Below, piece by piece: positions 33,095 to 48,144 of a DNA stretch of 64,000 nucleotides. How positions within the stretch are numbered: the first letter of the stretch is position 1; each line of letters starts with the position of its first letter. Position numbers and translations under genes: made by a program. Source of the stretch: an uncultured Porphyromonadaceae bacterium. GTDB lineage: Bacteria > Bacteroidota > Bacteroidia > Bacteroidales > Muribaculaceae. A model generated the notes under the pieces. The model had not been told where the DNA came from and did no database searches. It saw nothing but the letters and a program-made list of their open reading frames with translations. Where the stretch lies: contig CANOLV010000013.1 of assembly GCA_947567425.1 (NCBI GenBank), positions 1-64,000 on the forward strand, written 5' to 3'.

Positions 33095-33316
33095 ATGTAC
33101 TGGACATTAGAATTGGCCTCGAAGCTCGAAGATGCGCCGTGGCCCGCTACCAAGGAAGAACTGATAGACTACGCAATGCGCTCGGGCGCCCCGCTCGAAG
33201 TGATAGAAAACCTTCAGGAAATGGAGGACGAGGGCGAAACCTATGAATGCATCGAAGACATCTGGCCCGACTATCCCTCCAAAGAAGACTTCTTCTTCAA
33301 CGAGGAGGAATATTGA
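33095..33316 (+). CDS. Small DUF2795 protein (insertion target)
   Basis: 73 residues, cytosolic. MYWTLELASKLEDAPWPATK and APLEVIENLQEMEDEGETYE are almost fixed in Bacteroidales members. The C-terminus is very acidic and aromatic (EDFFFNEEEY). Function unknown. The last codons and the following four bases recur at 41371-41394 with two synonymous changes, so the 3' end of this gene looks like the attachment site of the adjacent island. A terminator follows 30 bases downstream. Confidence 0.9.
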   Translation: MYWTLELASKLEDAPWPATKEELIDYAMRSGAPLEVIENLQEMEDEGETYECIEDIWPDYPSKEDFFFNEEEY

Positions 33317-33319
33317 TTG
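33296..33319 (+). repeat. Left copy of a 24-base direct repeat (island boundary)
   Basis: TTCAACGAGGAGGAATATTG plus ATTG: the 3' end of the DUF2795 gene with its stop and four more bases. It matches 41371-41394 at 22 of 24 positions, and both differences are third-codon-position changes (AAC/AAT, GAA/GAG). Confidence 0.7.
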
Positions 33320-33346
33320 CGAAACAACAATCTAATAATCTAACAG

Positions 33347-33392
33347 CCAGCGACATAAACATAATTTGAATGTTTGTATCGCTGGTGTTTTA
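33347..33392 (+). terminator. Terminator after the DUF2795 gene
   Basis: CCAGCGA (33347-33353) pairs with TCGCTGG (33379-33385), extended inward by partly paired ACATAAACA/TGTTTGTAT, followed by TGTTTTATT. Confidence 0.7.
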
Positions 33393-33431
33393 TTGCCTGA
33401 AATGGACAAATATGTTTGTATGTACAAACAT

Positions 33432-34301
33432 TTATTGATACAGGATGTATCCTTCCTGATCGTAGCAGCGACGATACCGGTGTATGATAGATATGAGAGA
33501 TCTTAATCGAGGATCGTCGCAGGTCAAGGTGGAATACTTTGCGTATTGGGTGTCATATCTCTCTCGTGATCCGCGGGCAATTCGATTCTCGATGTCTTCG
33601 GGTATTAGATAAGATCCACGATTCTCCACATAGGGCTTGAATTGAGAAAGGAAAATGGAAATACCTGCCAGGTCAAAGTCTCCGAAATGAAGATATCTGT
33701 TCGATATTCTTCCCAACCATTGCATTAGATCGGACGAAAATGCATATCTCGCCACAAACACCACACTCCTTTCTTCAGCGGTCAGAAAGGATTCCATCAC
33801 CTTCCGTTGTTCGCGTATCTTGAGAAAATTTTCCATGTTCTCGATTCCTACTATGAGAATATCCTTCGGGACAATAAAATTTTGCCAGTCGGCGATATAC
33901 ATGGCACTCCCTTCCGGTGGATTCAAAGTGAATGGTTTTCCGTTGAGTTGACAATCGATTTTGTTGTATGCGTTGATAAGGAAGCCAGGGCAGCTACGCT
34001 CGCTACGTAGTTTTGAATTACCAGACATTGTAGCCTGGTATGCACGGGTATGCGTCTCGATAAGAGATTCGGCAGAATCCAGATCTGACAGAGCCTCATT
34101 ATATGCCGGTAGCGCAGACTTCAAGGCCTCAGGATTATTGGTCCTAAGAGACTTCTTACTGCCATGAGCCTCAATCGAAAGAAGTCCTTCATGTATCAAC
34201 GTAGAAGTCAAAGATGTTGGTAAAGAAGAAAATGCGACCGACTTTCCTTCAATGATACTGCGCAGATTTTCAATTAGTCGAGATGTAATCCTAATCTTCA
34301 T
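33432..34301 (-). CDS. jetD: Wadjet nuclease subunit JetD (TOPRIM)
   Basis: 289 residues. The N-terminal part is helical/winged-helix-like (about 1-90). The C-terminal part is a TOPRIM domain: DILIVGIENMENF supplies the acidic Glu and YLHFGDFDLAGISIF the Asp-x-Asp. JetD is the DNA-cleaving subunit of Wadjet, which cuts small circular plasmids extruded by the JetABC SMC complex. It is shorter than many JetD proteins I recall (over 350 residues). Its start overlaps the jetC stop by 11 bases, so the two are translationally linked. Last gene of the operon. Confidence 0.85.
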   Translation of the reverse strand: MKIRITSRLIENLRSIIEGKSVAFSSLPTSLTSTLIHEGLLSIEAHGSKKSLRTNNPEALKSALPAYNEALSDLDSAESLIETHTRAYQATMSGNSKLRSERSCPGFLINAYNKIDCQLNGKPFTLNPPEGSAMYIADWQNFIVPKDILIVGIENMENFLKIREQRKVMESFLTAEERSVVFVARYAFSSDLMQWLGRISNRYLHFGDFDLAGISIFLSQFKPYVENRGSYLIPEDIENRIARGSRERYDTQYAKYSTLTCDDPRLRSLISIIHRYRRCYDQEGYILYQ

Positions 34302-37300
34302 AATGGTTTGCTTGCCGAGTGGAAAGAATAGGTTGAACTATTGTGTGGGCATCCTTGTCTTTAGAAAGCATATAGAGATGGCGGTAAGACAGTGGACGGT
34401 GGGCCTTGGGAGATGAATTGACAATAAGGATGTCTCGTTCGTTAGCGAAGTTCAAAATGCCCTCGATATTTTCATCAGCCAGACGGCCGATCTCGTCCAT
34501 CATGCAGTGCACACGGAAGTCACCGTCCTGTCCGGCTCTGCGTTTGAACACACTCACAAGCAATATGTTCATGATAGCCTTCACCAGAATGTCGGTGCCT
34601 TCCGAGCCAACCGCCTTCAGATTTTCAGTCCAGTCGGTGGTGTTGTCGTTTTCTTCGATTTTGAATTTCAAGGAGAAAGTCTGTTCAAGAGGGAGTTTGA
34701 TGAGGTCGGGGGTACGCGTTAGAACCTCGGTCAGAGATTTTAGATACTTGATTGCCTCATGGTTGACATCGTCATGGGTGTCGTCTGAGAAAAGATTAAG
34801 TTCTCCAAGTTCGTATTGGTTGGCATTCCAGAAATCCGTAATGTTTTGCAGCTGCTGTATAATAGGCATGGTGCTTCTGTCGAGCCTCAATGTGATGCTT
34901 CGAATGACTCCGGCAAACGTCTTTCTGGAGAAATCATTATTAATATCGTTGACAATGCGCCGTATCTCCGACTCGCGACTCAGCAACATGCTGAAATCGG
35001 AAGCCGCTCTTGAGAGAATATCTCGATACAGATTGCTCGTGACTTGCTGATATTCTTTTATTTTATCATTCACCACAAAATCTTCCAGACTATCAGCGTA
35101 CCGGCGGTAGTCGGCCGTCGAGTCAAAATCGAGTGGAAACTTGAAGGTATTGTTGAGCGAGAATCTCTTTTGGAATTCGTTGATCTGACTTTTAAGTGAA
35201 TCGGAAAGACGGTATATTTCACCGGTGAGATTTTTTATTGTTTCAACTATGGATAGACATTCCAGTTCTGTGGATATGGAATTGGCTTTCTTCAGTTCCG
35301 GTGGACATGCTGAGGAGTCAATGAAGTCTTCGGTCTTTTGTATGGCCTCAACAGCTCGGTCGTAGGATGATTTCAACTCTGACAGTGCGGCGTTCTCCTC
35401 CGTCCTTTCCGACTGAAGCTTTTGAGATTTTCTGTCATATGTCTGTTTAAGAGCGGCATCGGTAGCTTCGATGTCTTTCTTTTGAGACTTGAAATTGTCT
35501 TCATGATCAAGCCAGCGTTTGCAGTCATTCCGGTATTCGACCACAATATCTCGTTCCTTTTCGATACTGTCGATTCTGCTTTTGGCCATGCTGATTTCCT
35601 CCTGAAGACCATTGGTCATCGTTGTGTCCACCCCGGCACCCGATAATTCCGCGCGCTCATCGCATTTCACCTGCGCGATTTTAATATCGTCTTCCTTCAA
35701 ACGTGCTGATATCTCTGCTTCGTAAGATTTTATAAGCTCGTCAATCCTGTTGCGGTCATTCTGTCTTTCTGTATCTGTCGATTTTCTGAGGGCTTTCAAT
35801 TCTTTGTCGAGCTTTCCCTTGTTTTTTTCAAGGGCGGTCTGTAATTCTTCAGCCTTGAGTTTCCACTCTTCGATCTCGTCTGCATACCGGGAATCAGTCT
35901 CTTTGAGCATTTTCGTCTCTTGGGCTCTGATTCCCTCAATACGCAACTCCTCTTCTCTGATACTCCGGCGTTTAAGCTCAATTTGATGGGGAATCAGACA
36001 GTTTTCATACTGTATCGCTTTAATTGATCGAATAAGATCTTTTTGCCCTTCATTGATTTTAAGTTCCGTTTCTTCGCGGAGATTTATGATTCCAGCGTAT
36101 ATGGAGTTGATTTCTGAATTGAGCGTGCGGATAGTTTCCTTTATCATTGCTGGAGTGCGCACCTCTTTATTGATGCTGTAAAGGTCGATGTCTACGCCGA
36201 ATAGGGTGTTGGAGCCTGCATCGGTAAGTTTTGGATTGAGTGTCTGGGAATAGAGCACATTCTTTTCATCGACAACTTTGCCTATCGACATTTCCCATGA
36301 TTTCACATTTTTATCGAGCCATTCACAAAAGGATCCTTTGAATTTCTCAAGCGTAATATTTTCTTCTGTTAGTTTGGATTTCAGGCTTTTGGCTTGCGAT
36401 GTCAATTTGAATTCCTGAAGTTTGAGTTCATTTCCCAATTCTTGCCGTTGACGGTCAATCCGGTTTTGCAGAATCTCCAACTGATTGTCATTTTGCAGTT
36501 TCTTGTGGTTCAGGTCGGCCTCCTCTTTTCTTAACGATTCGATAGCGGCCTGACACTTGTCGATGTCCTGCTTTAACGGTGAGTATTTTGACGCTTTCAG
36601 TCGCTCCATCTCGAGATGGTGGATTGACTCTTGGCTGGCATGCAGATTTTGGCTGGTTTCATCAATCAATGAGTTGAATTTCATGCGTATTTCATCCTCG
36701 GCTTTTGCCTGCTTTTTCAGCCGGTCCGCTTCGCGCCGGTTGAAATCGGATGTCGCCGCGTTAGATTGCTCTTTGCGCGACTGCGCATATTCTTTTCCCG
36801 CATTTTCTATACTGTCGACCAGCGATTTGTATTTGCCGGAAATTGACTGGTACTGCGCAAGCACCTGTGTGAGGAGCCGTTCTTTTTGTCGAAGGTCGAG
36901 GCGAAGGCCTGACAGACTTGTCACGCGTGCGATTATCGACTCGATATTCAATTCGTCATATTTCTTCCTCAATGTTTTTGTTTCCTTCAACTTTTCATCA
37001 AGGGCTCCTATCTTTTTGAGATTTTTCTCATGTTCCGACCAATATTTTGCATTTAATTCGGAAATCCGGTCGTCAAGTTTTTTGACGGTTTCTTCTTTTC
37101 GGTTTATTTTGCTTTGAAGTACCGGCATGTCACGCTCGGTGCGATGCAGTGCGTAAATGAGCATTCCACAATTTTCTCGCAGATAAAATTCGGATGCAGT
37201 GATTGTATGGGCAGTATCGATAATCTGGTCAGCGTCACGTCGGGTCTCATTGATTCCATGTCGGTTTATGGCGGTTCATAACGCAAGGTCTTTCAGTTCG

Positions 37301-37983
37301 TCAGTAAAATTGATAAGCTTGGAACGGAAAAAATTCAGATCGATTGATACTTCTTCGTCATCGCCCGAGATGCTGTTGATTATGGTATTTTTAATGAAGG
37401 CAGCATTGACACGTTCGTTGAGAAAGACATTCTGTATGATACGCTTGATATTCTGGTATTGTTGGCTGCGCAGCAAGTAATACTTCAGCAAGTCCTTTTT
37501 CATTTTAGAGCTGCGGTTGCCATAAATGACATCCATATACTGCGTGTATCGTTCAATAATTCCGCTGAGGTCAATGCCCCGGCTCTGTATGCGTTGTCTG
37601 ACAGTGACCGGGTCTGACGCTACAATGCCCATAGCATCAATAAACCAATCTTTGTCATAGGCCGCATCCACAAATCTGAAAGTCGCTCGATTGTGGTGAC
37701 GGAAGAGCACTACGCAGAACGGATGCTCTTCACCTCCCCGCGATACTTCATATACGATATATGATTCCGATGTAGGAACATAATAGTCATCAAAAGAATT
37801 TTGGTCCTGTTTTCTGAGTCCGAGTTTGTCTTTATCGGCATTGTAGAAAAAAAGAATGGCACGAAGCAATGTGGTTTTGCCGACGCCCTGTGTGCCGGTG
37901 AAATGCACATTGCCGTCGAGTGCTACTTCGCCATATCTAATGTGGGCGCTGTTGATAAAAATTATTTTATTCAGAAATCTCAT
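34291..37983 (-). pseudogene. jetC: Wadjet SMC ATPase JetC interrupted by an in-frame TGA
   Basis: Read through a single TGA at 37278-37276 the gene encodes about 1230 residues, the usual JetC size. Before the stop: about 235 residues from the ATG at 37983, with Walker A GTQGVGKTT (30-38) and the N-lobe of the head. After it, in the same frame: 38 codons to the next ATG (37164), then long antiparallel coiled coil, a hinge-like centre, and near the end Walker B CMMDEIGRL. The 38 codons after TGA read as normal helical protein (ETRRDADQIIDTAHTI), so it is a nonsense change, not a frameshift; TGG (Trp) to TGA is the simplest origin. Possible outcomes are loss of function, read-through, or a split SMC. 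Confidence 0.8.
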
Positions 37984-38512
37984 CTTCGTTTTCAAAAGCT
38001 ATAAGTTGAACCAAATCTTCAAGATATCGATATGCCGACGTTACCGAATATCGTTGTGTTACATTGTCTAGAAGCTCGACAAATCCTTGTCTGGTGAGTT
38101 CCTCCACGAGCCTTGTCGCTATCTCGTCGTGACGTGTTCTGTTGTCGTAAAGCGTTTTGGCCTTGTCTCTGAGTTCGATGTCAGAATCGATTTTCACTAT
38201 TAGATCGGCGGTTAGAAACGAGAAACCGGGGCCGAAGGCTGGCTCCCAAGCTTTGAGAAAATCGAGTACATCAATCCAATGACCCATTTTTTTGAGTTTG
38301 TCTGTCAGAGCGGTTTTAGATTCCCGTCGCGAAAAATAAAAGTATTGTTTCCCCTCTTGGAGAATAAAGCCTATTTGGGAAAAATAGTCAGCGTAGTCAT
38401 CCCGGTTATCGTCGAGGTCAATATAAATTCTGCGTATGCTCTCGTCGACACTGTCTGCGGGAATGAAACCGCCCCGGCTCAGGCGGTCAAAAACTTGTTG
38501 TACATATTTCAT
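37967..38512 (-). CDS. jetB: Wadjet subunit JetB (MukE-like, DUF4194)
   Basis: 181 residues, soluble, winged-helix (kite-type) protein: VFDRLSRGGFIPADS, IGFILQEGKQYFYFSRRES and VTSAYRYLEDLVQLI. JetB bridges JetA and the JetC heads, like MukE in MukBEF. The ATG overlaps the jetA stop (38512-38509, ATGA). Its own end overlaps the jetC start by about 17 bases. Confidence 0.85.
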   Translation of the reverse strand: MKYVQQVFDRLSRGGFIPADSVDESIRRIYIDLDDNRDDYADYFSQIGFILQEGKQYFYFSRRESKTALTDKLKKMGHWIDVLDFLKAWEPAFGPGFSFLTADLIVKIDSDIELRDKAKTLYDNRTRHDEIATRLVEELTRQGFVELLDNVTQRYSVTSAYRYLEDLVQLIAFENEDEISE

Positions 38513-39708
38513 GGCCTGTTAAAAATTAAAGGGTATTCAATATTTCCATCACACTTCCATTCTGATGTTATCAGCAATCGGTCGGAATGGTTGAGAATAA
38601 TCTCTGTATAATATTCCACTTTCCGTTTCTTGTCTTGAGGTTGGTCATATGGATAAGTCATCACGAAGATATATAGGTCTTGCGATGTTGCGAAAAAAGC
38701 GTTGGCGATAACATCTGTGTCAACGAAGTCCTCTACTACGAAGCCCGTGTTCATGTCGCTCTCAGTCAAAGGTACTGAAGAGTGTTTTTTCAGATTCTTC
38801 AATCGCTTGATGACTTTGCGCACCTCAGTTATAGCGTCAAGTCCATCATCGGTGTTACGGATAAAATCAAGAGATACTTTTGTAGAATAGTAGGATGCCG
38901 TCTCCAATGCCATATGGTTGATGCTTTCGAGCAGACTGCGGATGTTGGTGGTGCGCTCCCAGGTGAGCTGGTCTTTGAGATATTTCAGTTTCCGTATCCT
39001 CTTTACCAGTTGGTTGTATGCGTCAATCTGATGAAGATAGTCTCTGATAGTGCGTTCGAGTTCAATCAGCGAATGGAAAATATCCATGAACTGCATCCTC
39101 ACATCGGTGGTAAGACGCGTGATTCGATTGTCTCCAGAGAGCACAACGAGCGTTTCCTTCCGCTCGTCGATAAGCCTTTCTGTATTTCTGATCAAATTGG
39201 CGATATTCTCGAGGGTTGCAAGATTGTTCTCAAGTTTCTGCCGTTTGATTTCATAATTGCGTTCTTGGCGATAGGTGTCGTTGATTACGCGTTTGAGCTC
39301 AATTGTCTTGTTGGCGGCCTGAGTGGCGATGTTTCGAAGCGATCGCCTTATTCGTCTCACATATTTATCTCGATTTTCTTGTTGTTCGCGCTCTTTGAGA
39401 TAAAAATCAATATTATCTTTAAGCGACTGGAGGTTTTCTTCAACCGACGAGCTTGTTATGTCTTCGTTGAGCATTAGCACCTCCTCAAAGAAATGTTGGT
39501 AAGTCTCTTCAATCTCAATGAGATTATCCTCAACACGAATCACCCCGTAATCGATGAGAAGACTCAGATTCTGTTCGCTATCAACAAACTCCAAAGCGTC
39601 TTCATATGTAAAGTCAAACCTCAGCCGCGCCTGAAACAGTTCACGCAGAAGTTTGCGCTCTGAGTGCAGTCGCTTGAGTAATTCATCGATATTTGGGAAA
39701 ACTTTCAT
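38509..39708 (-). CDS. jetA: Wadjet subunit JetA (kleisin, MukF-like)
   Basis: 399 residues. N-terminal winged-helix region (FDFTYEDALEFVDSEQNLSLLIDYGVI-type, in parts), then a long helical coiled coil (about 110-300) and a C-terminal mixed domain ending NHSDRLLITSEW...PLIFNRP. JetA is the kleisin connecting the JetC heads. It is shorter than DUF3375-type JetA, so I do not assign a Wadjet subtype. It starts 12 bases after the AAA ATPase stop and overlaps jetB, so ATPase-jetABCD form one transcription unit. Confidence 0.82.
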   Translation of the reverse strand: MKVFPNIDELLKRLHSERKLLRELFQARLRFDFTYEDALEFVDSEQNLSLLIDYGVIRVEDNLIEIEETYQHFFEEVLMLNEDITSSSVEENLQSLKDNIDFYLKEREQQENRDKYVRRIRRSLRNIATQAANKTIELKRVINDTYRQERNYEIKRQKLENNLATLENIANLIRNTERLIDERKETLVVLSGDNRITRLTTDVRMQFMDIFHSLIELERTIRDYLHQIDAYNQLVKRIRKLKYLKDQLTWERTTNIRSLLESINHMALETASYYSTKVSLDFIRNTDDGLDAITEVRKVIKRLKNLKKHSSVPLTESDMNTGFVVEDFVDTDVIANAFFATSQDLYIFVMTYPYDQPQDKKRKVEYYTEIILNHSDRLLITSEWKCDGNIEYPLIFNRP

Positions 39709-39720
39709 AAATTGGATACG

Positions 39721-41172
39721 TTATGGTTCAAAAAGATTGTCAAGGGTTATGACCGAATTGATTTCCATTGACTGAGGATTTCTCACCAGCCCAGACGATG
39801 CCACCATTGTGAGTTGAACTCCTTTTTTGGGAGCAACCTCATGCTGATATCGGCATCGCCGAAGATTTAATTCCACCAAATATGCAGGTGTTATGGCGTA
39901 AGGGCCATCAGTATATTTCATTTCGCAGATATTGACCATATTGTCGGCGCGGTCTATTATCATGTCACATTGGATTGCAGGGAAAGACTTATTCTCTTTG
40001 GCTGCCCATGCAAAATATTCGCAATACACGCCCCCTATTCCGAGAGCTTTCTGAATTTGATTGATATGTTGGGCGCAGACTCTTTCGAATGCCAATCCTC
40101 GCCATGAGTTCACAACCCCAGTGCCATGATGAGAAGTCCAGAAATTAGATTGGCATTTCCTCTTGTACACAAAATTATGATAAAACAATATGAAATTGTC
40201 TGCAATCTGATATATCGCGCCCCGCTCTCTCTTTGTGGGCTGGGGAATTTCGCGTATAAATCCGGAAGCTTTCAAATTGCCAAGTATGTTTGAGAAACTT
40301 GCGGACATTGTAATCCCCGTTTTTTCAGAAAGTTCTTTTGCCGTCATACCTCCTTTTTTTTGTATTAAAGCACCTATGATGGCTTCATGTTTCTCAGGAT
40401 TATTAAAAAGAGACTTGAACAGGGCCTTGTATTCTATGTCCATTTGTGCTCTCTGCGAAAAAAACAACTCATCAATATTTGACGACAGACTCTTATGGGG
40501 ATCGAGCATGGTCCAATAGTAGGGCACACCTCCTAAAATCATATAGGCCTCCGTAATCAGATTTCTTGTCCAATTAAATCTACGAGCTTTGCAGTATTTC
40601 TCACATTCATTTAGCGAGAATGGTCCCAAATAAATTTGTCGTGTCACTCTATTATAAAGACCTCCATGATTACTGAACACCCTTTTAAGCATCCAACTTG
40701 TTGCACTACCGCAAATAATCAACAGTATATCTCCTGTCCATGCTGCCCAATCATTCCAAAAATGGCCGAGAGCTTTTACAAAGTCTGACCCCTTCGCATC
40801 CATCCATGGAAGTTCATCCAAAAATATTATCTTTTTGTGGTTGAATTTTGGATTGCCTGCTTTAGTCTCGAGTAGAGATCGCAGCATATCAAAAGCGTCG
40901 AACCAGTTCTGAGGTTTTGCACATTTGGATAGCCCTTGTCGCAGAAGACTTCTATGAAATTCTGACAATTGTTGCCGGGTATTGTTTTCTTCAATACCTG
41001 TAAAGGAAAAACAGAATTGTTGTGCAAACATTTCTTTAATCAGAAATGTTTTACCGATCCTGCGTCTCCCGTAAATGGCAATGAATTCCGAAGCATCTGA
41101 GTTTAACGCATCCGAAATCTTGGCTATCTCGGCTTCTCTGCCAATTATCTTAACTCGAGTTTCTGTTTTCAT
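39721..41172 (-). CDS. AAA ATPase (ATPase_2/DUF234 type) upstream of the Wadjet genes
   Basis: 483 residues from the ATG at 41172. Walker A YGRRRIGKT (about 34-42) and Walker B KIIFLDELPW; LLIICGSATSWMLKRVF matches the sensor region of the archaeal-type ATPase_2 family. A winged helix (MTAKELSEKTGITMSASFSNIL-type region, about 285-330) and a C-terminal PD-(D/E)xK-like part with Asp and Glu-x-Lys (MIIDRADNMVNICEMKYTDG) follow, as in DUF234. Such ATPases are frequent in Bacteroides genomes and of unclear role. Position 12 bases ahead of jetA makes a link to the Wadjet system possible but not shown. Confidence 0.82.
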   Translation of the reverse strand: MKTETRVKIIGREAEIAKISDALNSDASEFIAIYGRRRIGKTFLIKEMFAQQFCFSFTGIEENNTRQQLSEFHRSLLRQGLSKCAKPQNWFDAFDMLRSLLETKAGNPKFNHKKIIFLDELPWMDAKGSDFVKALGHFWNDWAAWTGDILLIICGSATSWMLKRVFSNHGGLYNRVTRQIYLGPFSLNECEKYCKARRFNWTRNLITEAYMILGGVPYYWTMLDPHKSLSSNIDELFFSQRAQMDIEYKALFKSLFNNPEKHEAIIGALIQKKGGMTAKELSEKTGITMSASFSNILGNLKASGFIREIPQPTKRERGAIYQIADNFILFYHNFVYKRKCQSNFWTSHHGTGVVNSWRGLAFERVCAQHINQIQKALGIGGVYCEYFAWAAKENKSFPAIQCDMIIDRADNMVNICEMKYTDGPYAITPAYLVELNLRRCRYQHEVAPKKGVQLTMVASSGLVRNPQSMEINSVITLDNLFEP

Positions 41173-41176
41173 AATG

Positions 41177-41184
41177 CAAAGATA
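41177..41184 (-). promoter_or_regulatory. -7 element TATCTTTG almost at the ATPase start
   Basis: TATCTTTG on the minus strand ends 4 bases before the ATG at 41172. If used, the mRNA would start at or within a few bases of the ATG, i.e. a leaderless transcript. No TTG is found 19-21 bases upstream. Confidence 0.4.
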
Positions 41185-41370
41185 ATAAAATTTCGTCAGA
41201 TGGTTACTTTTAGGATATTTTTTGGGGGGCAAAAGTAATCAGCTATCTCGAAATACAGATGAGAACAACACAGAAATTATAACCTAAGATGGTCTTACAA
41301 AGACATTTAAGATTGCGTATGATTCAATATTGTCGTTGCTGCTATTTGGCAATCAATTAAAGTGTTGTTT

Positions 41371-41394
41371 TTCAATGAGGAGGAGTATTGATTG
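41371..41394 (+). repeat. Right copy of the 24-base direct repeat
   Basis: TTCAATGAGGAGGAGTATTG plus ATTG; translated in frame it still gives FNEEEY-stop, the C-terminus of the DUF2795 protein. The preceding codons lose the similarity within a few residues. A strong terminator follows 36 bases later, as one does after the intact gene. Confidence 0.7.
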
Positions 41395-41430
41395 TCTGGA
41401 GGCGTGTAAATACGTGTAAATAAAAGTATA

Positions 41431-41475
41431 TCAATCGGATAAACAAAGATGTGTTTGTTTGTCCGATTGATTTTT
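41431..41475 (+). terminator. Strong terminator downstream of the duplicated gene end
   Basis: TCAATCGGATAAACAAA (41431-41447) pairs with TTTGTTTGTCCGATTGA (41454-41470) with a single G-T wobble, followed by TTTTTG. No intact plus-strand gene now precedes it, so it is probably the original DUF2795 terminator left after insertion. Confidence 0.75.
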
Positions 41476-41662: not shown

Positions 41663-44002
41663 TTAGCATTCCGATGCTTCTGTTGGCTCGATAGCAGTCC
41701 GGTCATATTCGTCAAAGATTTCTCGGCATTTGTTTGTTGCGAACTTAACCCTGTCGACAGTATCAATTCCTGATTCATTCTCAATTGTTATAGAGTCAGT
41801 GTTACCATCGGGATATCTCACGAAAAGCTCATGCTCTTTGACATCAATGTCAATTTGCTTATCGGTGAGGTATAAGGGCCCTCCATAATCGTCAATCATA
41901 CAGTTGATATGTGATTCCAAATCCTTTTTAACCGCCAGATTATATGGATTCCAGTAGTATTCTTTTCCGCCACCTCCGTTGGCATTGAGTTTTTGGTAAG
42001 AATATTCTCCGCCCATATAGCGGTATTTCGCTTTTGTGGCATTGTTTATACTATCATAGACAGCCATATAGTATGACCATGGGAAGGATTTAATATTCTT
42101 ATCCTTCTTGAAATTATCAAGTATTGAATCTAATGCCTGATGAGAATAATCGCTATAAAGATTCAAAAATTTCTGAATAATGGCTGGTGTGACACGATTA
42201 GATGATTGAGTCAGTCCCCTCCATTGTCCCCAGTCCTTGCCTCCATAGCTTTTGACCTTTTTCGAAGAGGGTGTAGGGGAGTAGTCGCCTATGGTAAGCA
42301 GAGCTGTTTCAATCTTGTAATAGTCTGCGTCGGAATGAAATAGATGTCCAAATCGCTCCAGAGCTATTGTGTCAATGTCTTGGCGATCATCCGAACCCGT
42401 AATGAATACATTGATATTTCCCATGATTAGCCAATGGTTCTCAAGCAACTTCAGTAAAGGACCAAATTGCACATTCTTCTTAATCCACAGTGTCTTAAAC
42501 GCCTCTTGCTCCTTTTGGCGTTTATTGAATTCGTCATCAATCCCCTCTTTGGTAGTTTCACCTGTTGATATGATGTGGTCTACAAGCTTCAATGTATTGC
42601 TGAAATCGCGTGCGTGGATTTCTGTATTTTCAATCAGGTTTCTTAGTATGCGCAATCTTTCCTTAAAATCCATTGGGTTAATGGTGGACTCAGAAGACGC
42701 ATATTCAAAAAAAGCTTCGACATAGAGATTCGGTTCGTTATTAAGCAATCCATTCAGACAAACTTCTTTTAAGAGGTCGGTCCCTATACGAGTGCCTATG
42801 AAAACTTTTACGTCCTCGGGGATGGTCACGTTCCTGATATCGACATCCCATGCGTCATAATTGGTCTGTATGAATTGGCCAAAGAATGTATTGGGGTCAT
42901 TGACATATTTCTTTTCTTCATCTTTTTTAGAAAAGAAATCAAGGATTCTCTCAAAACGCGACATAATCCTCCTGACCTCTTCCGATTTTATTTGTCGCTC
43001 TGTCTCCAGCTCTTCACTTGTATATTCCTTTTCCAGGTTCGGATGGAATCCAAGAACTGTGTCGGCAAGTTTGAGAATGTCCTTTTCAGGATATTGGTAG
43101 TCGACCAACCCAAGTTTGGCACCTTCGATGTTCAGAAAGAATATCAGTAGATTTGTAAAACATCCGTCCAGTCCATTGTCAACATAGTGATTTATGTCGA
43201 AGTCCATATCGGTGTTACGATAGCGCCAAAGCAGATTGGTCCATCCGGTGTCTATTTTTGCGGAAAGTCGTCCTTGAGTTTGAGCAAATTCATCAAGCAT
43301 AGCCTTGAAATGCTCAAAATCTGTCAGCAACTTACCTCTGGAGTTCATTTTAATATACAGCTCGTCCGTAGTGTCGAGATCCGACAGATAGAGACTCCAG
43401 AACTTTACGTTGGCTTTAAGATTATTCCACACAGTCAGAAATTGATGTTTGCCATATTCCAACTGACAATAATGCGTGTCTATATCGTCGAGCATCGTTA
43501 TCATAGCCATGATGGTCGGATCTGAACGCCATAGACCGGTATACCACCATTGGTCTTCGATGTATGCTTTAATCCCGGCGAAGTTCTCGGCCGGAATATC
43601 ATGCAGTCTTTCACAAAATTGCTTACTGCTTGTCCTGGTCTCATAACTGAATTTCCGGAGGAAATCAGTGTCAGAGCCACTTCTTTTTCCAACATAAAGA
43701 TGCAGGAGAAAAAGTGTGGTGAGACGTTGCTGCCCATCAACCGGGTAGAAAATATTGCGGGTCTTCTCCTCCTTTTGTCCAAATACAAAGTCGAGAAGCA
43801 ATTCCTTCTCCCCCTCTTTGTCTATGGAATCAAATAAGCTTTTCAGAAAACGCTCTCTGATTGCGCTTGCGCTTTTACGCCCCTGAGCATAGTCGCGTTG
43901 TATTTTGGGTATCAGTATCTTGTGTATGATATCCTCCGAGTTCTTTCCAAGCATTTCGTAAAGAGAAAGCTTTTTGCCAAAGTTCTTATCGGTTTCTGAC
44001 AT
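41663..44002 (-). CDS. DUF262 (ParB/GmrSD-type) protein, second of a pair
   Basis: 779 residues. DUF262 at the N-terminus with IPKIQRDYAQGR and the nucleotide-site motif PVDGQQRLTTLF (about 87-98). The long remainder is helical, and near the C-terminus there is a separate region (about 670-770) with GGEYSYQKLNANGGGGKEYYW. I find no DUF1524 HNH motif, unlike its neighbour. DUF262 hydrolyses NTP and in GmrSD controls cleavage of modified phage DNA. It starts 2 bases after the upstream DUF262 gene stop, so they are co-translated, and may act as an ATPase/nuclease pair. Confidence 0.8.
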   Translation of the reverse strand: MSETDKNFGKKLSLYEMLGKNSEDIIHKILIPKIQRDYAQGRKSASAIRERFLKSLFDSIDKEGEKELLLDFVFGQKEEKTRNIFYPVDGQQRLTTLFLLHLYVGKRSGSDTDFLRKFSYETRTSSKQFCERLHDIPAENFAGIKAYIEDQWWYTGLWRSDPTIMAMITMLDDIDTHYCQLEYGKHQFLTVWNNLKANVKFWSLYLSDLDTTDELYIKMNSRGKLLTDFEHFKAMLDEFAQTQGRLSAKIDTGWTNLLWRYRNTDMDFDINHYVDNGLDGCFTNLLIFFLNIEGAKLGLVDYQYPEKDILKLADTVLGFHPNLEKEYTSEELETERQIKSEEVRRIMSRFERILDFFSKKDEEKKYVNDPNTFFGQFIQTNYDAWDVDIRNVTIPEDVKVFIGTRIGTDLLKEVCLNGLLNNEPNLYVEAFFEYASSESTINPMDFKERLRILRNLIENTEIHARDFSNTLKLVDHIISTGETTKEGIDDEFNKRQKEQEAFKTLWIKKNVQFGPLLKLLENHWLIMGNINVFITGSDDRQDIDTIALERFGHLFHSDADYYKIETALLTIGDYSPTPSSKKVKSYGGKDWGQWRGLTQSSNRVTPAIIQKFLNLYSDYSHQALDSILDNFKKDKNIKSFPWSYYMAVYDSINNATKAKYRYMGGEYSYQKLNANGGGGKEYYWNPYNLAVKKDLESHINCMIDDYGGPLYLTDKQIDIDVKEHELFVRYPDGNTDSITIENESGIDTVDRVKFATNKCREIFDEYDRTAIEPTEASEC

Positions 44003-44004
44003 GA

Positions 44005-46032
44005 TTATAAGAATTTTTCAAGTTTGACATCCATGTCTTTGAGATATGCATTGCGGTCGTCATCACCCCAAAAGAAAAGATGGTCAGCATCACAGTTGTA
44101 TGCAATCTGCATTTCCGCTCCATTTGAGTCCATCTCTGTTTTTACGCCTGAAATGGCTTTAAGAAATACGCGTTCGGTTGCGATAGGAACGAAATTTGTG
44201 CTAAGCATCTCAATAATCTTGCGACGTTTAACATCGAATGTTGAATTATTGAGCGTCGAATTATCATTCTTGCTCAATAACGCCATATTTCCCATGTCAT
44301 CCTGATACAATCCAGATGCTCCCGGAATGCTTTCGATAAGTGTTGTGAAGTTATCCGCTATTTCTTTGAACACTTCTCTATTGTCATCACTTGTGAAGAT
44401 TGACATTTGATTTAGAAGATTCCCGGCATGTTCTTTAATCGGCATTGAGTCTTTATATGAGGCTAAAATCTTTTCAACAGTAATTTTATGGTTGTCCACC
44501 CATTCTTTCCACTGCCATCCTTTATTCAGTGTCTCGGATTTTTGGGCATGAATATGCTCCAGGCTCCATCCACCTCCGGCATTGTTGTGTAGGCCGAATG
44601 GATAACGAAGCTCCTTTCCCGCTGATTCGGTCACCATGATATTATATAGGGTAAGATACCTTTTTATCATGTAATGATGTGACGTGTCTTTTGAAGTGTC
44701 AGGTGTGTCGGATGCATTGTATTTCAAGTCGTGGAAAGATGTTATGCCATCCCACTTTTTACCTTTGGGCATCTTTAATGAAAACTTGACCAAAGTATCA
44801 AGGATTTTACGCACCCGGTCAGTCCCTCTGTTTTGCCGGCCCGGGAAAGTGGGATGTGCATATTTGAATATCCTGCTCAATGCGTTCTTCGGAAAATCAA
44901 TTGCTACGAGATAGCCGAGTCGATGATATATTTCGCGGTCTTTCCACCAGTCGCGGAGACGTTGGTATTGCAGATATATTTCGTTCCACTTCTGCTTTCC
45001 GGTCATCTTCTCATGATTTTCAAACCAAGAGACGAAATAATTGAAGGTAAAAAGTCTGTCACTGCTTCCGCTTTCAGCTTTACCGGATATCAGGTCGAAA
45101 AGCAGGTCTATTTTTGTAGGATATGATGCAGAGTCGATGCGGGTCAGGAAGCCCCAGAAATCCTGTTCTGAAAGTTCCCGTTCTATCTGATCCCACTGTG
45201 CCACCAATGTCTGCTTTTCATATTCTTCAGCTTCAAGGTCATTGACTCCTGAAAAATTTTTGGAACGCAAGAATAGAGCCTTGACAAGTTCTGAATTTGT
45301 CAAAGGAATTTTGCCGATATTCAAATCGGTGAATTTCTTCCAGTCTGTGATGGAATCGGAGAGTTCATACCAAATTATCTTCACCTGATTTTTATATTGA
45401 CCGGTTTCCGTTAAGGCACGAGCAAGCTTAGGAACCTCATCCGTCGTTCCCAACCATTTTAAGATTGCAGTATATGCGTGCCACATATAGAGATGGTCGG
45501 GACTCTTGCGTATATTATTGATGATGTCAGGTTCTGATGTTGGATTACCTTCCTGATCTACTTTTATTGACGATATTCCATTAAGAAACTTCAGAGTGCT
45601 CTTACGTGTTTCATACGATAATTCAAATGGGATGGTTATTTGAATATTGTCTATGAACGTTGGAGAGTAAGGCATATTCATTGATTCCAAAATTTTCCTT
45701 GCTTCTTGATAATCGGCTTGTTTTCGCTTAAGAGCCTGAAGTATCAGAAATATTGTTGTAAGTCTCTGTTGCCCATCGATCAGGTCAAAATCATATTGCT
45801 CTTCCTCCGGAAAGTCTTTCACTTCTGCCGGAGCCGGTGAAACGACTATGGGTTGGAGATAATAAGGAACATCCTTATCACTCTTTATAATGTCATTTAG
45901 AAGCTGCACCACATTCTGACGTTCCCAGCGATATCCCCTTTGGTATGCAGGGATACGGAAGCGGTATTTCAGTTCTTGTATCGCCCTCGGACGCAGGTCA
46001 GGACATTTATTGTCTATATTTTCGCCTTTCAT
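44005..46032 (-). CDS. DUF262-DUF1524 protein with HNH motif, first of a pair
   Basis: 675 residues. DUF262 domain with YRFRIPAYQRGYRWE and DLIDGQQRLTTIF (about 83-95). The C-terminal third has the DUF1524 HNH-type block GGGWSLEHIHAQKSE (around residue 500) and LLNQMSIF...MGNMALLSKNDNSTLNN, with Asn residues of the H-N-H. This is the architecture of GmrSD-like type IV restriction proteins and relatives. A TATCTTTG (46208-46201, minus) lies 170 bases upstream of the ATG. Together with the 41663 gene it makes a two-gene unit. Confidence 0.83.
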   Translation of the reverse strand: MKGENIDNKCPDLRPRAIQELKYRFRIPAYQRGYRWERQNVVQLLNDIIKSDKDVPYYLQPIVVSPAPAEVKDFPEEEQYDFDLIDGQQRLTTIFLILQALKRKQADYQEARKILESMNMPYSPTFIDNIQITIPFELSYETRKSTLKFLNGISSIKVDQEGNPTSEPDIINNIRKSPDHLYMWHAYTAILKWLGTTDEVPKLARALTETGQYKNQVKIIWYELSDSITDWKKFTDLNIGKIPLTNSELVKALFLRSKNFSGVNDLEAEEYEKQTLVAQWDQIERELSEQDFWGFLTRIDSASYPTKIDLLFDLISGKAESGSSDRLFTFNYFVSWFENHEKMTGKQKWNEIYLQYQRLRDWWKDREIYHRLGYLVAIDFPKNALSRIFKYAHPTFPGRQNRGTDRVRKILDTLVKFSLKMPKGKKWDGITSFHDLKYNASDTPDTSKDTSHHYMIKRYLTLYNIMVTESAGKELRYPFGLHNNAGGGWSLEHIHAQKSETLNKGWQWKEWVDNHKITVEKILASYKDSMPIKEHAGNLLNQMSIFTSDDNREVFKEIADNFTTLIESIPGASGLYQDDMGNMALLSKNDNSTLNNSTFDVKRRKIIEMLSTNFVPIATERVFLKAISGVKTEMDSNGAEMQIAYNCDADHLFFWGDDDRNAYLKDMDVKLEKFL

Positions 46033-47580: not shown

Positions 47581-48144
47581 ATGAAAACAAATCTCAAACT
47601 CAATTCAAACACTCCTCTTCAAGCTCTCGCATCCAAGGCTCGTAGGGCCGTGGCGATTGCGATGGCCGAGCGTGTCGAAAGACCGAAGAATAATTCTAAT
47701 AAGCGTGCCGTAAGGCAGATTCCGAAGATCGACCGCGATATTCGGTCGATCTTCAAGACCTTGACCTCCAGGGTGGCGGAGGACTCGACCGTGGTGTTGG
47801 AAAAACCGGCGCAAGGCGCCTCATGCACAGGAATAATACGGATCTACCGACATGACGATCTCGTCAGGCAGGAGCATGAGGCCTCATGCCATGAACTGCG
47901 TAGAAATACCACGGAGGGTGGGCGTAGATCCAGGCCATACCGGGCCGCACCCTGCGTGACATACGCATTTTATCCAAATGTCACCGACATTACGAAACTT
48001 GGCTCCATAGCCATATATGGCGAGAATGCGGAATCGCGACTCCGTATGATTCATAATTCCGGTACATTCTTCGGACATGAAGTGGTCAGCGCCAGAATCG
48101 AAATGGGGATGCGCCCGTTTGTCGATGTAAAGCTGCGGTGCTGA
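47581..48144 (+). CDS. Unrecognised basic protein
   Basis: 187 residues, Arg/Lys-rich, without signal peptide or membrane helix. The N-terminal 60 residues are basic and helical (LQALASKARRAVAIAMAER). The C-terminal 80 residues look like a small mixed alpha/beta domain with APCVTYAFYPNVTDITKLG and PFVDVKLRC. Four Cys are scattered, not in a metal-binding spacing. I cannot assign a family. It stands alone, converging on rtcB 44 bases away. Codon use resembles the G+C-rich host genes. A poorly preserved or lineage-specific gene is possible. Confidence 0.6.
   Translation: MKTNLKLNSNTPLQALASKARRAVAIAMAERVERPKNNSNKRAVRQIPKIDRDIRSIFKTLTSRVAEDSTVVLEKPAQGASCTGIIRIYRHDDLVRQEHEASCHELRRNTTEGGRRSRPYRAAPCVTYAFYPNVTDITKLGSIAIYGENAESRLRMIHNSGTFFGHEVVSARIEMGMRPFVDVKLRC

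Follow-up and report, generated by a model that had tools for sequence, protein, structure and literature searches.

The 3' end of a DUF2795 gene as a putative attachment site in Bacteroidales, and a probable non-autonomous Wadjet element integrated there

We analyzed a DNA stretch of 64,000 nucleotides from an uncultured Porphyromonadaceae bacterium (GTDB family Muribaculaceae; assembly GCA_947567425.1, contig CANOLV010000013.1, positions 1 to 64,000), hereafter the window. Our subject is an 8-kb segment that lies behind an intact DUF2795 gene, carries an ATPase gene and a Wadjet operon, and ends in a second copy of the last codons of DUF2795. An earlier reading of the letters (the original prediction) took this segment for an island inserted at the 3' end of the gene. 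The locus was compared with genomes of the same family and of the wider order, in which genomes are labelled G and fetched loci L. The following features were recognized (coordinates in the window).

33095..33316, plus strand: DUF2795 gene, intact, the putative integration target (PF11387, E 1.1e-16)
33293..33319, plus strand: left core (putative attL), the last codons of DUF2795 plus TTG (pattern search; boundary role seen in relatives)
33342..33389, plus strand: left-end hairpin, terminator-like, bearing the inverted arm ATGTTTGTAT (fold; homology to the G115 element)
33412..33433, no strand: more arm copies ATGTTTGTA, direct and inverted, presumed integrase arm sites (read from the sequence)
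33432..34301, minus strand: jetD (DUF7281; domain and PADLOC scans; 60% and 58% identity in G203 and G212)
34291..37995, minus strand: jetC (DUF3584), with an in-frame TGA at 37276-37278 (domain scan; relatives compared)
37967..38512, minus strand: jetB (MksE; PF21980; 73% and 76% identity in G203 and G212)
38509..39708, minus strand: jetA (no Pfam hit; 71% and 66% identity to the gene in the corresponding position of the operons in G203 and G212)
39721..41232, minus strand: ATPase gene, PADLOC candidate PDC-S27 (E 3.4e-184; no match in the G203 and G212 loci)
41368..41394, plus strand: right core (putative attR), the displaced DUF2795 end (pattern search and own-end search; arm to its left unrecognizable)

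The direct repeat of the gene end is present while DUF2795 itself stays intact, encoding a protein of 73 aa that is 88-99% identical across the 80 loci retained. With up to two mismatches, the core TTYTTYAAYGARGARGARTAYTGATTG occurs in the window only at 33293-33319 and 41368-41394, the expected number being 0 (100 shuffles). The two cores share 24 of 27 bases, all three differences being synonymous, and are 83% identical over a 35-nt stretch; over the slightly shorter span first reported (33296-33319, repeated at 41371-41394) the 22 of 24 identical bases and the synonymous differences were confirmed and go beyond chance. A terminator had been proposed after each copy, and a hairpin with a T-rich tail does follow both (left, -21.5 kcal/mol, z -4.8, fold against shuffles; right, -24.1 kcal/mol, z -7.4), but the right one is probably not the original terminator. 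Starting at the core, the left end is homologous over 132 nt to that of an integrase element in G115 (alignment score 114; next best 70; shuffled maximum 24). The G+C content per 2-kb step is 39-47% from 32 to 48 kb versus 53-56% outside. The claim of an A+T-rich insert thus holds for its inside, but the low-G+C stretch extends past the right core to about 48 kb and is longer than 8 kb.

All five cargo genes of the segment lie on the minus strand, and the content originally read from the letters, an ATPase gene plus jetABCD, was recovered by Pfam and PADLOC scans and by homologues. JetB matches PF21980 (E 1.3e-34) and JetC matches PF12128 (E 2.6e-31 and 2.5e-27), as required for Wadjet; the PADLOC scores of JetC are weak. 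JetD has DUF7281 plus a weak PADLOC match to JetD1 (E 0.00088), and JetA, which gave no Pfam or PADLOC hit, was assigned by its operon place and by homologues in 14 of 15 other jet loci. The operon presumably functions in defence against phages or plasmids. Not all of its genes are intact, however: the TGA at 37276-37278 interrupts jetC, which in the closest relatives is open over about 1230 codons. In-frame TGAs in jetC are also present in three other genomes of the family. The segment was said to retain no integrase, and a search of the 8 kb found none; in the whole genome of the window the best integrase match reaches only E 5e-10, with no close relative.

Integrases directly behind DUF2795 were found in other genomes. 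A 444-aa tyrosine integrase follows the gene in G004 and G005 (PF00589 and PF13102 in the G005 copy), where identical 24-nt cores stand 13.3 and 17.2 kb apart. Queried with the G005 integrase, 32 of the 297 family genomes gave matches at 1e-25. In 28 of 30 family integrase loci a core on the same strand precedes the integrase, which starts 187-602 nt from the first base of that core, in 27 of them behind an intact DUF2795; in the remaining two (L164 and L168) it is convergent to the DUF2795 gene. At the level of the order, a family member from L027 used as query matched 10 of 393 genomes at 1e-40, in seven families. This search yielded 11 loci, two of them repeats of earlier ones, and all nine new loci lie behind a core (seven after an intact DUF2795 and two after a displaced end; one integrase is broken by stops). 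Combined, 37 of 39 integrase loci start just behind a core, while 50,697 phage records contained no match at 1e-20. A tyrosine recombinase associated with this core, which the original prediction suggested looking for, is thus represented by a whole family, and comparison of the genomes identifies the 3' end of DUF2795 as the predicted attachment site of this family in Bacteroidales. Isolates with the integrase behind DUF2795 are SW299 (SDWH01000003.1) and Muribaculaceae Isolate-013 (SCEJ01000015.1), represented by L027 and L045. In G551 (isolate SW299; L263:621-16173), two integrase elements stand in tandem, with an FtsK-type protein among the genes between the cores.

The limits of the elements were located by comparing pairs of genomes from different genera. 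G102 and G095 are 99.7% identical over 10.8 kb, and over the 300 nt that start with the first base of the core and run to the right, every 25-nt step shows 100% identity; left of the core, identity is 68-92% in the DUF2795 body and 46-65% further left. Between G102 and a third genus (G238), identity reaches 96-100% starting 30 nt ahead of the core, compared with 72-84% over the remaining gene body. At the right end, G005 and G219 are 92-100% identical until 25 nt before the core, 84% identical in the last 25 nt before it, 80% in the core and 46-76% beyond. By these comparisons, the core is seen to bound apparently mobile DNA in the relatives, most sharply on the left in G102 and G095.

Duplicated cores recur widely. 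Scanned with the core pattern (one mismatch allowed), 195 of the 297 family genomes contained it, and among the matches listed at least 17 contigs have more than one core, spaced 0.4-11.8 kb apart and sharing one strand, while no contig with cores in opposite orientations is among them. We also searched the surroundings of each locus for its own gene end (up to four mismatches in 22). A downstream copy was present in 25 of 99 loci, and the controls gave one reverse-strand hit downstream and, upstream, none on the same strand and one on the reverse strand. This set is mixed: 64 loci were not picked for pairs and gave 3 positives (one copy only 85 nt away, one at four mismatches), while the 35 family loci, including that of the window and many fetched because pairs were known, gave 22. 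Among members of the genus that were not picked for pairs and have at least 1 kb downstream, six of seven were positive. In L093, a contig from a distant Bacteroidetes, the last 22 nt of DUF2795 are repeated exactly about 85 nt after the stop, a distance too short for a cassette.

Between successive cores we delimited 33 units, that of the window included, of which 7 contain an integrase (11.1-19.2 kb) and 26 do not (0.4-9.2 kb); these numbers are no census, since some of the loci were chosen for their pairs. Searched with 28 integrases and six mobility or replication proteins, none of the 26 integrase-less units contained an integrase remnant, and two contained an HTH_17 remnant. Half of the ends in integrase-less loci (34 of 68, including the left end of the window) align to an integrase element, beginning at the core and extending for 91 to 289 nt, and none of these 34 best alignments reaches the integrase start. 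For the remaining 34 ends no alignment of this kind was obtained. Among DUF2795 ends of sufficient length, 23 of 75 resemble an integrase left end above the shuffled maximum. Read from the sequences, a left end consists of the core, about 30 nt, and a hairpin with a class-specific stem, often followed by direct repeats of the 3' arm of the hairpin. On a tree of 28 integrases (26 rows labelled), the seven hairpin classes require six changes, which is the minimum. This test is weak, as the class labels were assigned manually while looking at the tree, three classes consist of a single row, and no result from a shuffled control stands beside it. Integrase-less units with matching left ends thus recur at the putative site, and the ends appear by this comparison to fall into classes.

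The cargo of these units varies and in many of them includes defence or toxin-antitoxin genes; the varied inserts that the original prediction anticipated at this site were found between duplicated ends in many genomes. In a selection of cargo proteins (30 scanned by Pfam and 15 by PADLOC), we detected an EcoRI restriction-modification pair (L111), an AbiE antitoxin and toxin (L102), a UG24 reverse transcriptase of 1267 aa with DnaG-like and AbiGi-like neighbours (L112 from G237, between two cores at L112:9941-18082), TmtA-like, AbiP2 and helicase proteins (L181), an AbiL-like ATPase (L132), Fic proteins (L095, L110), RhuM (L100), ORF6N (L107), AAA_14/DUF4143 ATPases (L105, L109), proteins combining XRE with an M78 peptidase (L113, L115), and two methyltransferases with a large ATPase protein (L116). 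Other cargo is not clearly defensive (a weak SatD match with DUF3307, DUF1848, a metallophosphatase, and BspA-type repeats), and several of the scanned proteins matched no family. The Fic proteins of G003 and G147, from different genera, are 90% identical. Elements in G004 and G585 encode Mob_Pre-type relaxases together with DUF5906 or DUF3987 proteins, a combination that points to mobilizable elements; the G585 element stands outside the count of 33 units, its right core not having been found. Similar integrase elements with two DNA methyltransferases and a 1480-aa ATPase protein occur in two genera (L116:7049-18374 and L194:463-11721), and this gene set is possibly a restriction-like system.

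The 8-kb segment is therefore, with good confidence, a non-autonomous integrated element that was inserted at the end of DUF2795 by an integrase of the Bacteroidales-wide family. The proposal of an integrative element using this gene end gains support from the integrase family, the varied cargo, and the near-identical element beginning at the core in two genera. The segment is filed as non-autonomous because it lacks an integrase, which 7 of the 33 units possess. Its insertion would have occurred by site-specific recombination in which a tyrosine integrase of the family joined the last ~24 bp of DUF2795, serving as attB, to the matching core of a circular element. The element would supply its own DUF2795 end and hairpin, displacing the previous end to 41368, so that DUF2795 would keep its coding sequence and, if the hairpin doubles as a replacement, a terminator. 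Since the left end is of the G115 integrase-element type, that type of integrase most likely moved the segment, presumably acting in trans from another element in the same cell; relaxase-bearing relatives may carry such units between cells. The copy in the window is probably immobile now and possibly inactive, because its right arm is unrecognizable, no cognate integrase was found in its genome, and jetC contains a stop.

More tentatively, and with rather less confidence, the units may form an integron-like system of defence cassettes, each composed of a core, a class hairpin and one defence or toxin-antitoxin operon, that would be captured, stacked and exchanged in trans by the integrases, with arm specificity residing in the hairpin and relaxase elements as vehicles.

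The reading of the segment as an integrated element is also supported by Wadjet operons elsewhere. At E 1e-60, relatives of JetC occur in 17 of the 297 family genomes, the window's included. Those with the highest identity (53 and 52%) come from G203 and G212, members of another genus, where Wadjet lies downstream of DUF2795 in the same orientation as in the window; the third-closest, G162, is on a 6.9-kb contig without DUF2795.

Several observations weigh against the segment being an integrated element of this kind. In G212, about 2.5 kb of other DNA without a core separates DUF2795 from the operon; the Wadjet left end in G203 is of a different (CAATCGG) type; past the operons of G203 and G212 the best candidates for a right core have 3 and 5 mismatches and are not convincing; and 13 of 15 fetched jet loci outside the window, some on short contigs, have neither core nor DUF2795. 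Given the other left end in G203 and the lack of an ATPase match in both genomes, the operon has probably been combined with different ends. The DNA left of the window's right core resembles no other displaced end (best score 21, within shuffled values). On the left side of the G005 and G219 pair, the DUF2795 body is also 76-96% alike, so that its boundary is less sharp and the left side is of little help. For G268 and G071, the similarity seen inside the element ends about 50 nt short of the right core and returns in the core. Behind the right core of G004 and that of G005 stands another copy of the left end (about 88% over 185 nt; L096:14030-14215, L097:17904-18083); those flanks are thus not plain original sequence, and the copy is probably a trace of an earlier occupant, as if a solo end had been left. 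Finally, the comparison genomes are one per species, and the flank comparison gave no clean empty partner. As an empty-site candidate, the right flanks pointed to G204 and G147, which share a flank gene behind their displaced ends, but the inserts differ; G019, a third relative with that flank, has no DUF2795 in the adjoining 1.5 kb and so provides no empty site.

Among the alternatives, we consider it somewhat unlikely that a complete, integrase-bearing mobilizable element was inserted and then lost its integrase and relaxase by decay, leaving a cis-mobilizable element (CIME). The right arm and jetC of the window do look decayed, some full elements at the site (G004, G585) have a Mob_Pre relaxase, and such decay and accretion are described for tandem islands in the corresponding passages of a review (PMC5704250). 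However, simple decay should leave some partial integrases, and with no integrase fragment in the 26 integrase-less units, an HTH_17 remnant in two, and homology to full elements ending before the integrase start in every aligned end (half of the ends being unaligned), exchange of contents between conserved ends is favoured. Homologous recombination, by which Wadjet would have been swapped between existing cores and hairpins of an array without integrase action on the segment, is a good deal less probable. It would account for the same Wadjet having different left ends in the window and G203, and for the differing left ends of the Fic cassettes in G003 and G147, but the left end of the window matches an integrase element over 132 nt. 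Cores of ~24 bp are, moreover, short for homologous recombination. Tandem duplication, with the right copy as a truncated DUF2795 duplicate and the intervening genes acquired later, agrees with the repeat being coding and its differences synonymous, but no more than the final 24-35 nt are repeated, the sequence to the left of displaced ends is not DUF2795, and integrases lie directly behind the core, where the near-identical element also begins; being already contradicted by the integrase and boundary data, it was rejected as highly improbable. Nothing was found in favour of a chance or common unrelated repeat, and with none expected in shuffles and nearly empty own-end controls this reading has a negligible probability and was dismissed.

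Integration at the DUF2795 end thus remains the preferred reading, and the sequence behind the right core suggests that a second element follows. Its features are given below.

41430..41471, plus strand: CAATCGG-type hairpin behind the right core, with which a second element probably begins (fold; hairpin-type scan)
41663-44002 and 44005-46032, minus strand: two GmrSD-like genes, the likely cargo of the second element (PF03235 in the first; same PADLOC groups in the second)

The CAATCGG hairpin occurs at 16 places in 15 of the 297 family genomes, all 16 with a core (up to two mismatches) upstream, the spacing being 30 nt in 15 cases and 40 nt at the right copy of the window. At 11 of the 16 places it lies directly behind an intact DUF2795, and in at least G050, G204 and G222 a bounded cassette follows. 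The original prediction regarded the hairpin at about 41431 as the terminator that DUF2795 had before the insertion. This is less likely, since the type sits at the left ends of cassettes elsewhere, and we likewise set aside a native terminator as the origin of the type, the hairpin or a close variant standing between DUF2795 and a bounded cassette in L102, L103, L109, L132 and L234. Because this type directly follows intact DUF2795 genes with cassettes behind, the hairpin at 41430-41471 more likely starts a second element. The stretch of GmrSD-like genes (41663..46032) has a G+C content of 41%. No third core was found to the right of these genes within four mismatches (best candidates 5 and 6), and no integrase with the CAATCGG end type was found among the 28 left ends compared or in further integrase loci. 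Probably, then, a second cassette with the GmrSD-like genes follows the right core, with no recognizable right end.

Arrays built in a comparable way are known. In staphylococcal cassette chromosome (SCC) arrays and in integrons, a recombinase encoded elsewhere adds short cassettes serially to a single attachment site; the SCC enzymes are serine recombinases acting at rlmH, and integrons use IntI and attC. The units described here share with them the serial short cassettes and the single site, but their tyrosine integrase scores 47.7 bits with the integron-integrase model, far below the cut-off of 265, and membership among integrons was rejected. The target of NBU1 is tRNA-Leu. NBU1, Tn4555 and their relatives resemble the present elements in combining a tyrosine integrase with a relaxase in Bacteroidetes hosts, but according to the review passages on them (PMC5704250) they have MobP relaxases and other targets, whereas here the relaxases are of Mob_Pre type in the two elements scanned and the target is DUF2795. 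The same review, in its passages on CIMEs and on integrative and mobilizable elements (IMEs), describes CIMEs as att-flanked units without integration or transfer genes that stand in tandem with IMEs at a gene end with accretion at attR, a layout like the one reported here. In the window, the left end is recognized by its homology to an integrase element, and the right core is present with an unrecognizable arm. Those passages treat CIMEs as decayed IMEs or integrative and conjugative elements, whereas here no integrase remnants were seen and integrase-less units outnumber those with an integrase by 26 to 7 in a sample partly picked for pairs. The ssrA islands of Dehalococcoides, as presented in parts of McMurdie 2011 (PMC3146451), likewise form tandem arrays behind a single gene, whose 3' end is found as a short direct repeat at the island borders, with an integration module next to the left edge in only 16 of 31 and with varied cargo. 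They differ in having a tmRNA target, a serine recombinase and many reductive dehalogenase genes, where we find a protein gene, a tyrosine integrase and much defence cargo.

The DUF2795 end had been put forward as an undescribed insertion site for defence islands, and this agrees with the literature searched by titles and abstract starts (most subscription papers and bioRxiv preprints lying outside), in which we recognized no description of DUF2795 as an attachment site. By title and abstract start, the papers naming DUF2795 deal with subjects other than mobile elements; it is not named in the CIME and IME passages of the review (PMC5704250), and a term search of a survey of gut mobile elements (PMC6907783) found neither 'DUF' nor 'attachment site'. 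On the best reading, the attachment site and the integrase family are new and come with non-autonomous defence cassettes, the whole being a variant of tandem-island and CIME arrays. The findings offer a simple guide to locating defence systems in a dominant gut order, namely to look between copies of the DUF2795 end, as well as a tractable set of integrases with matched end classes, and they bear on how small defence operons without mobility genes of their own spread between species.

Two neighbouring genes may be mentioned. The rtcB gene to the right of the island has a match at E 1e-100 in one of 13 other genomes of the genus, at another chromosomal place. A gene at 47581-48144 encodes 187 aa, and look-alikes, judged by eye, lie near DUF2795 in G010 (L099, 8102-8665, in the orientation of DUF2795) and in G212 (L217:16359-16757).

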